A stretch of 49,812 nt of DNA. Origin: an uncultured Legionellales bacterium. Lineage in GTDB: Bacteria > Pseudomonadota > Gammaproteobacteria > Eutrophobiales > Eutrophobiaceae. This document shows, one piece after another, positions 5,058-6,931 of the stretch. Position 1 is the first letter of the stretch, and every line of letters starts with the position of its first letter. The position numbers and the translations under genes were made by a program. The notes beneath the pieces are model-generated. The model did not search any database. It worked only from the letters and a program-made list of their open reading frames with translations, and was not told the origin of the DNA. The stretch spans positions 2,501-52,312 of the forward strand of contig CAJWRJ010000009.1 of assembly GCA_913046215.1 (NCBI GenBank). The letters are read 5' to 3'.

Positions 5058-6086
5058 TTAAATATTAGAGTCTGGAAGTAAAAGTCCTGCCTCTTCTTCT
5101 AAGCCGAACATAATATTCATATTCTGTATTGCTTGACCTGCAGCACCTTTTACTAAGTTATCAATAACAGATAATATTATAAGGCGTTTTGGATTATCAT
5201 TATTAAAATGAAGTGCAATATTACACATATTCGTCATTTTGACTGTGCTTGTCTCCGGACAGAACCCGTCTTTTAAAACATCAACAAATTTTTCATTTGA
5301 ATAAAAATTAATATAATGATCTTTTATTTTTTTGAAACTAGTCGTTGTATTAACATACAAAGTCGTATGAATACCTCGATGCATAGGAGCTAAATGCGGA
5401 GTAAAAACAAGATTAATCTCCTTTGCATAATCTTCTAAAACTTGTTCTATCTCTGGTAAATGTCTGTGACTAAAGGGCGAATATGCTTTAAATGATTCGG
5501 TAAAATTAGAATACGCTTCAGATAAAACAGCTTTTCTTCCGGCACCACTTTTTCCAGATACTGCGTTTGCAATTATACTGTTCGTCTCAATCAACCCATA
5601 TTTTACTGCAGGTAATAGGCCAAGTATTACAGAGGTTGGATAGCAGCCAGGATTAGCAATTAAACTTGCTTTGCTGATAGATTCGCGATTAATTTCAGGT
5701 AGTCCATATACCGCTTTATCTAAAAGATTTGGACAAGAATGTTTCCTTTTATACCACTGCTGCCACGTATTTGAGTTTCGTAATCTAAAATCAGCTGATA
5801 GATCAATAATCCGACAGCCTTGTTCGAGCAGTATAGGAACATAATTCATAGCCACCGCATTGGGTGTTGCAAAAAATACAAGGTCGCATGTATACAACGA
5901 TTCGCTATCATGCGGGACAAAATTTAGACTATAATCTGTTAATGTTGGAAATATATCAGTTAATGCTTCGCCTTTTTTTGAATTTGATGTAATAGCAACA
6001 ACTTCAACTTCTTCATGAAATGTTAGTAATCGAAGCAATTCGGCGCCTGTATAGCCAGTAGCACCAACAATACCTATACGAATCAT
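5058..6086 (-). CDS. argC: N-acetyl-gamma-glutamyl-phosphate reductase
   Basis: NADPH-dependent enzyme of arginine synthesis that reduces N-acetyl-glutamyl-phosphate to the semialdehyde. It has 342 residues. The Rossmann motif GIVGATGYTGAELLRLL is at residues 4-20. The catalytic cysteine is C148 in NPGCYPTS. SGKSGAGRKA and the FSHRHLPEIEQ region, both typical of ArgC, are present. VKGAAGQAIQNMNIMFGL closes the protein as expected. It is probably first in the operon with DUF6776, bactofilin and erpA. A strong terminator lies about 70 bases upstream on the same strand, so argC must have its own promoter between 6087 and 6156. Confidence 0.96.
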   Translation of the reverse strand: MIRIGIVGATGYTGAELLRLLTFHEEVEVVAITSNSKKGEALTDIFPTLTDYSLNFVPHDSESLYTCDLVFFATPNAVAMNYVPILLEQGCRIIDLSADFRLRNSNTWQQWYKRKHSCPNLLDKAVYGLPEINRESISKASLIANPGCYPTSVILGLLPAVKYGLIETNSIIANAVSGKSGAGRKAVLSEAYSNFTESFKAYSPFSHRHLPEIEQVLEDYAKEINLVFTPHLAPMHRGIHTTLYVNTTTSFKKIKDHYINFYSNEKFVDVLKDGFCPETSTVKMTNMCNIALHFNNDNPKRLIILSVIDNLVKGAAGQAIQNMNIMFGLEEEAGLLLPDSNI

Positions 6087-6156
6087 TTTTTATTTATCCA
6101 ATAATGTGTAAGCTAAAATTTCTAACGTTATAAGTTAATAATACTTAGCAATATGC

Positions 6157-6183
6157 AAATAAAAAAGCGGCCGAAGCCGCTTT
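6157..6183 (-). terminator. Intrinsic terminator, 8-bp stem with UUCG loop and T-run
   Basis: Reading the minus strand, AAAGCGGC, the loop TTCG and GCCGCTTT form a perfect stem (6164-6183), followed by TTTTTTATTT (down to 6157). UUCG is an unusually stable tetraloop. The orientation is what matters: on this strand no gene lies between the hairpin and the rubredoxin gene far upstream, so it ends an unannotated transcript. The plus-strand reading has only three T residues after the stem and is weaker. Confidence 0.85.
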
Positions 6184-6247
6184 GAATTCAAGATTTTATA
6201 ATTATTATTTTTAAGAATTCACTGTATAAACAATGGATTCGATATAA

Positions 6248-6276
6248 AGGTTAATGCTAGATGAGATGAGTGTCAA
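6248..6276 (-). promoter_or_regulatory. Sigma-70-type promoter of a possible short RNA
   Basis: On the minus strand, a perfect TTGACA (6271-6276) is followed after 17 bases by TAACCT (6248-6253). The expected start is near 6241, about 60 bases before the terminator hairpin. The -35 is consensus and the spacing ideal; the -10 matches at three of six positions. Direction and position pair it with the terminator rather than with argC. Confidence 0.45.
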
Positions 6277-6445
6277 GAAATCAATATATGATTCTAAAAT
6301 AAAAAATTTTCATATGTCATTGATATAATTGAAAAATTTTATCTTAAGTGTGGCGCCTTCTCACTTATGCAAGGGAAAACTAAATATTCTTACTAGATTT
6401 AGTAAAAAATAGATAATATGTATCAAATATTGAATTAATTATTTT

Positions 6446-6931
6446 ATGAAGAAAATAGTAAAAATTTTTATATGTATAGGGTTCGTGTCTATTCTGGTAT
6501 TTCATTTATTACCGATTAAAGCCCCCAATATCTATTTAAATTCTATCGATGGTCAAAAACTTCAAATTGATTCGTTCAAAGGGAGCCCGCTGTTAGTAAC
6601 ATTTTGGGCGACAACATGCCACATATGTGTAGAGGAGATACCCAACCTTGTAAAATTACATGAAGAATTAAATCAATATGGATTTGAAATTATAGCAATT
6701 GCTATGTCTTACGATCCTCCTAATAGAGTGGTTGAGTTGTCAAAAAATAAAAAAATACCATATCTAATTGCAATAGATATTAAGGCTGATGCTGAATTAG
6801 CATTTGGTAAAATAAGTGCAACCCCAACAAATTTTTTGATTGACTCAAATGGAAAAATTATTAAAAAATATGTTGGCGCAATGGATTTTAATAAATTACG
6901 TTCAAAAATAAAAAAATTACTTAGTACATAG
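6446..6931 (+). CDS. TlpA-like membrane-anchored thioredoxin-fold protein
   Basis: Periplasm-facing thiol-disulfide oxidoreductase of the TlpA/ResA/AhpC-TSA family; substrate unknown. It has 161 residues. An N-terminal signal anchor covers about residues 4-23, and a thioredoxin fold follows. The redox pair is C58 and C61 in WATTCHICVEE. The cis-proline loop is seen in SATPTNFLID near residue 130. An insertion after the first strand, ending in AIAMSYDPPNRV, is characteristic of TlpA-type proteins. hemJ follows after 17 bases, so the two are probably co-transcribed; a role in supplying reductant for cytochrome or membrane protein maturation is inference. Confidence 0.88.
   Translation: MKKIVKIFICIGFVSILVFHLLPIKAPNIYLNSIDGQKLQIDSFKGSPLLVTFWATTCHICVEEIPNLVKLHEELNQYGFEIIAIAMSYDPPNRVVELSKNKKIPYLIAIDIKADAELAFGKISATPTNFLIDSNGKIIKKYVGAMDFNKLRSKIKKLLST

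Follow-up and report, generated by a model that had tools for sequence, protein, structure and literature searches.

Between two divergent genes of the window, by which we mean the whole stretch of 49,812 nucleotides that was analysed, lies a compact unit on the minus strand, composed of a putative promoter, a 5' hairpin, a single-stranded linker and an intrinsic terminator (Table 1). The flanking genes were checked by their Pfam domains, and UPF0093 (hemJ), DUF6776, bactofilin and Fe-S_biosyn (erpA) domains were obtained for neighbouring genes; the short names argC, tlpA, hemJ and erpA are those that we presume to fit. An earlier note on this DNA had described a TTGACA box, a TAACCT box 17 bases away and an 8-bp UUCG hairpin with a T-run. 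Direct reading of the minus strand reproduced these coordinates and the stem exactly, with a 17-base spacer, about 57 transcribed bases ahead of the hairpin, a perfect 8-bp stem closed by a UUCG loop, and T's from 6166 to 6161. No gene was found between promoter and terminator, as that note had said, and the start of tlpA at 6446 on the opposite strand agrees with its statement that no upstream feature of the minus strand calls for a terminator. The ends of the predicted RNA were placed 7 bases past the -10 box and within the T-run. At 6340-6400, between tlpA and the promoter of the small RNA, there is a GC-rich patch containing an inverted repeat, AAGTG...CACTT; by eye, the patch is absent from sister species.

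Table 1. Features of the unit and its flanking genes, with positions in the window
Feature	Position	Strand	Basis
-35 box TTGACA	6271..6276	minus	read from sequence; TTGAC invariant in 21/21 aligned sequences, picked by a pattern requiring it
-10 box TAACCT (consensus TAnnCT)	6248..6253	minus	T, A and final T invariant in 21/21
Predicted small RNA, ~83 nt	6159..6241	minus	model R1 match, 123.4 bits, E 9.8e-18, the window sequence itself being in the R1 training set
5' hairpin, 11 positions, one mismatch, loop UUAU	6215..6240	minus	fold and covariation
A/U-rich single-stranded linker: (ARN)4 run AAAAAUAAUAAU, then UUGAAUUC	6184..6214	minus	unpaired in fold
Intrinsic terminator hairpin, DNA AAAGCGGC-TTCG-GCCGCTTT, RNA AAAGCGGC-UUCG-GCCGCUUU	6164..6183	minus	terminator scan
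Terminator T-tract TTTTTTATTT	6157..6166	minus	read from sequence
GTATTAT, probable -10 of argC's own promoter	6138..6144	minus	downstream of small RNA terminator
argC	5058..6086	minus	Pfam semialdehyde dehydrogenase domains; downstream neighbour
tlpA-like thioredoxin-fold gene	6446..6931	plus	Pfam Redoxin; divergent neighbour

A terminator scan of the region returned 6 sites where 2.1 (sd 1.6) were expected, the hairpin at 6183-6164 being the strongest. Promoter-like sites were not enriched in the region (22 found, 27.9 expected), and the -10 box TAACCT, which matches the consensus at 3 of 6 positions, is weak and was not reported by the promoter scan; by itself, the small RNA promoter is no better than chance. 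The RNA of the window folds into two independent hairpins, the 5' hairpin and the terminator, with a z-score of -3.63 (none of 200 shuffles as good). Because of the weak -10 box, one sequence could not decide the matter, and it is the comparison with relatives that does.

Conservation and spread of the unit

The unit was detected upstream of argC in each of the other five genus members and in many genomes of the family, where -35 box, -10 box, hairpin, linker and terminator all recur in 29 of 53 genomes. Twenty-one sequences could be aligned across promoter and RNA. They had been chosen by a pattern naming the -35 box (TTGAC required) and the terminator arm, so that the invariance among them, with TTGAC and TAnnnT kept at the correct spacing in all 21, is partly chosen. 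Of the 11 pairs that form the 5' hairpin, 9 had changed in both partners. For the structure as a whole, covariation was 0.267, compared to 0.115 (sd 0.013) after shuffling, with none of 500 shuffles as high, and was lost when the pairing partner was slid by 1-3 columns. For 40 sequences, in an alignment that was fitted to the structure model and on which the same selection pattern bears, covariation reached 0.315 against 0.119 in shuffled alignments and all 11 hairpin pairs were changed on both sides. Judged by these alignments, the RNA is under structural selection, and almost certainly a real, conserved RNA gene is present at this locus. The earlier note had named a stand-alone small RNA as one of its readings and an alignment of relatives as a way to look for compensatory changes. 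Such changes were found in the 5' hairpin and, together with the recurrence in the family, lend good support to that reading, which also stood up to the possible objection that relatives have neither -35 box nor hairpin, though 24 of the 53 family genomes are without the unit.

A covariance model (R1) trained on these 21 sequences, 20 of which come from the family and one (L062) from outside, matched the 29 family genomes at E <= 0.001, at one place each and with E-values down to 1e-18; a search at the level of the order covered the same 53 genomes. When the 24 family genomes without the unit were searched more sensitively, matches were obtained in 4, with E-values of 0.3-0.9 only. argC follows directly downstream on the same strand in 27 of the 29 family matches. 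L058 stops at a contig edge next to tlpA, and L022, the contig of this genome that carries argC, opens with the T-tract; L059 is followed by DUF6776, bactofilin and erpA, and its genome has its best argC match on a different contig.

Searches were extended to 369 genomes spread across the class, in which nine candidates per genome were scored and all counts are lower bounds. R1 matched at least 18 of these genomes, and at least 15 places were outside the family, of which at least 11 lie upstream of argC, including the training member L062. A second model (R2), built from 40 matches chosen partly for argC synteny and omitting L065, L070, L071 and L073, which have no such synteny, matched at least 29 of the 369 genomes at E <= 0.01. 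Its new places (L158-L168, at least 11) comprise six upstream of argC and one upstream of a DUF6776-like frame, bactofilin and erpA; the remaining ones are two beside hemJ, one beside a ClC gene and one beside lipB, where lipB and the ClC gene of L166 are what we take their translations to represent. Among 80 named argC loci, only L075 (CAJWQR010000046.1, uncultured Legionellales bacterium) matched strongly, with 127 bits, and is the closest named record. A diverged copy at L082 is plausible by eye and not significant, and L103 (Lamprocystis purpurea) has little in common beyond the terminator.

One genome (G146) carries two copies, L071 and L074, one before argC and the other away from it; their linkers and terminators are near-identical and their 5' hairpins differ. 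An architecture and a terminator type like those of the unit were also seen beside a ClC-type channel gene, not argC, at L065, L070, L073 (from 1501 onwards) and L166 (287-405). At L065 a gene with argA-type domains also adjoins the element, and L070 looks similar by eye. These ClC-side elements are perhaps a second type of locus or a sister RNA.

Linker, terminator arm and predicted function

The longest A-R-N run in the linker had a mean length of 4.2, compared to 2.22 in composition-preserving shuffles, and none of 1000 shuffles was as high, which is not to be read as a probability as the sequences are related. Four or more ARN triplets are present in 31 of 40 RNAs, and two or fewer in L059, L058 and L067. 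ARN repeats are described as being recognised by the distal face of Hfq, while U-tails go to the proximal face (PMC6239178). Of 58 relatives, 51 encode Hfq; a whole Hfq was not found in the genome of the window, where the contig carrying hflX ends inside what reads as the tail of Hfq. On these motifs, binding of the small RNA to Hfq is likely.

The terminator arm was analysed by a pattern count in the 53 family genomes, which is a fairer test of its conservation than the 21-sequence alignment. AAGCGGC-N4-GCCGCTTTT was present in 17 of the 53, once each and solely at this locus, and the reversed control gave no match, so the arm is kept by letter whereas the 5' stem is kept by pairing alone. 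A fixed arm would be accounted for if a pairing seed extended into it or if a protein bound there. In the six genus genomes, near-complements of the presumed seed were found at 88 places compared to 42 for the reversed control, with a query that takes in its own locus and a palindrome. No other near-complement site was common to all six genus genomes, and no target was found. In some species only, near-complements precede genes that we take to be fimV-like, engB-like and metZ-like. A near-complement of the junction of linker and terminator was observed in two sister species (L191 and L193), and in L191 it sits 53 nt before an engB-like GTPase frame.

The following mechanism is proposed. A sigma-70-type promoter upstream of argC would start an RNA of about 83 nt on the minus strand, and the 5' hairpin would seal and stabilise its 5' end. 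The AAN/ARN triplets of the open linker would fit the distal face of Hfq and the U-tail its proximal face, and the RNA would function in trans in the way of ChiX or MgrR, as one of the Class II Hfq small RNAs, possibly pairing with mRNAs via a stretch, UUGAAUUCAAAGCGGC, that begins just ahead of the sequence-fixed terminator arm and runs into it. We regard a stand-alone, Hfq-dependent, trans-acting small RNA that is built like E. coli ChiX, without claiming a relation to ChiX, as the best explanation and a reasonably probable one; that it regulates in trans by base-pairing is favoured somewhat more cautiously.

A different function could be read from the same features. The free letters of the hairpin, a linker kept merely as ARN triplets and the fixed terminator arm suggest an old and widespread gammaproteobacterial RNA that mainly occupies Hfq as a sponge, setting free Hfq, and does not pair through a seed. 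Lasting adjacency to the argC-DUF6776-bactofilin-erpA cluster across many families would be part of this reading, which we consider unlikely; in a variant of it, the fixed arm AAGCGGC may itself be the pairing seed.

Relation to argC

An RNA acting in trans has to be weighed against an attenuator or 5' leader of the argC-DUF6776-bactofilin-erpA operon, in which the promoter would serve argC and the hairpin would stop or admit the polymerase on a signal. The position of the unit directly upstream of the operon on the same strand, in 27 of 29 family matches, is what such a leader predicts, and at L059 and L164 (genomes G022 and G041) the element still precedes DUF6776-bactofilin-erpA without an intervening argC, an arrangement that a cis function for this operon would equally explain. 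However, the distance between the end of the match and argC ranges from 43 to 352 nt across loci, and in several genomes it is taken up by unrelated repeats. A 5-nt upstream complement of the terminator arm was detected in only 2 of 40 RNAs and an ATG-initiated frame of 8 or more codons in only 1, so that neither a conserved anti-terminator nor a leader peptide was found among the 40. Furthermore, the fold consists of two independent hairpins, and the second copy in G146 is not at argC. Short repeats of the CAGGATGTA / TACATCCTG type were observed to fill the stretch upstream of argC at L007, L008, L011, L017, L025 and L029.

argC also has a -10-like box of its own after the terminator. GTATNAT is located between terminator and argC in all six genus genomes, and was found upstream of argC at 17 of 48 loci, compared to 3.63 expected by shuffling, with three wrongly anchored loci (L061, L063 and L064, where the alignment began inside argC) kept among the 48. 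It is likewise present at L017, L018, L020, L022 and L024, where no RNA was recognised before argC. The variable gap, argC's own -10-like box and the failure to find an anti-terminator or leader peptide make attenuation of argC, which the earlier note had put forward, quite unlikely, and the small RNA gene is very probably independent of argC. As the unit nearly always precedes the argC operon, even without argC in between (L059, L164), it may make a small contribution to the operon in cis.

Comparison with known RNA families

At the gathering threshold, no Rfam 15 family was found for the window or, in a search that recovered the control, E. coli ChiX, with 82.1 bits, for 18 loci of relatives. 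Permissive matches of the window to STnc130, Atu_C9, AaHKsRNA82 and the L20 leader were rejected, being far below threshold and two of them on the wrong strand, as were matches in relatives to PhrS, CsrC and CrcZ, which are below threshold. No match to the window was obtained in a phage collection. A literature search returned no paper describing the RNA in its title or the start of its abstract, which is no proof that the RNA is unpublished. To our knowledge, few small RNAs can be traced across families of the Gammaproteobacteria. Here, an RNA absent from Rfam 15 has kept its genomic address in a lineage with small genomes (1.4 Mb). A covariance model is supplied ready for use, and the RNA offers a cheap test of which features are indispensable to an Hfq small RNA; it may also link genes of arginine synthesis or Fe-S assembly to Hfq regulation.

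We consider it improbable that the RNA is a diverged ortholog of an enterobacterial or pseudomonad small RNA, either ChiX/sroB or PhrS. The order of parts is identical in ChiX, R2, applied to 801 bases of the chiX locus, gives its best match in register with the gene (13.4 bits, E 0.058), and weak PhrS matches coincide with the RNA at L048 (27.4 bits), L061 (23.3 bits) and L064 (18.3 bits). Yet RF00368, which finds ChiX, found none of the 18 other loci in the same search, chiX sits between ybaK and ybaP and not at argC, and the PhrS matches, which score below the threshold of 37, are mostly due to the terminator.

Very improbable is a role of the two dyads as operators that bind proteins at the level of DNA, with the RNA as a by-product. 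Both hairpins are also dyads in the DNA, and that of the terminator is fixed in sequence, but the 5' dyad swaps letters on both sides and keeps its pairing, unlike a protein-binding site, and the T-run, the ARN linker and the upstream promoter spacing are conserved together with this dyad. A remnant of a lost tRNA or rRNA unit, the third suggestion of the earlier note, to which the strong -35 box and the terminator lend some resemblance as in stable-RNA genes, can practically be dismissed, as no tRNA and no Rfam match were found and the structure is under selection.

Among known systems, the predicted RNA most invites comparison with ChiX of E. coli (MicM, SroB; RF00368), which is about 84 nt long and likewise consists of a 5' hairpin, a single-stranded linker of the AUAAUAAUAA type and a terminator. 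The two differ in chromosomal site (ybaK/ybaP vs argC), their alignment by R2 is in register but its score of 13.4 bits is not significant, and the gathering score of RF00368 was reached neither by the window nor by the 18 loci of relatives. The seed of ChiX, UUCCUC, is absent from the RNA of the window. Weak local matches are also given by the GCGAC/GUCGC UUCG terminator of Pseudomonas PhrS (RF01673) and by the A-rich repeats of Pseudomonas CrcZ (RF01675); the RNA of the window is far shorter than either and the scores are below the gathering thresholds, the best for PhrS being 27.4 bits in a relative where 37 is required.

The Class II small RNAs ChiX, MgrR, CyaR and McaS are grouped in PMC6239178 by their behaviour in Hfq mutants, the class being defined there by changes of stability in mutants of the Hfq rim and distal face. 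For MgrR, the same source describes an (ARN)5-like motif with two mismatches in an open centre, and pairing via an adjoining single-stranded stretch (PMC6239178). A central single-stranded, A-rich ARN stretch and a U-tail are common to these RNAs and the one described here, with the difference that the class is set by behaviour in Hfq mutants and the likeness here by sequence features, with no match in sequence. Without claiming membership of the ChiX family, we suggest that the RNA probably represents a new family of a known kind, that of the Hfq-dependent trans-acting small RNAs.
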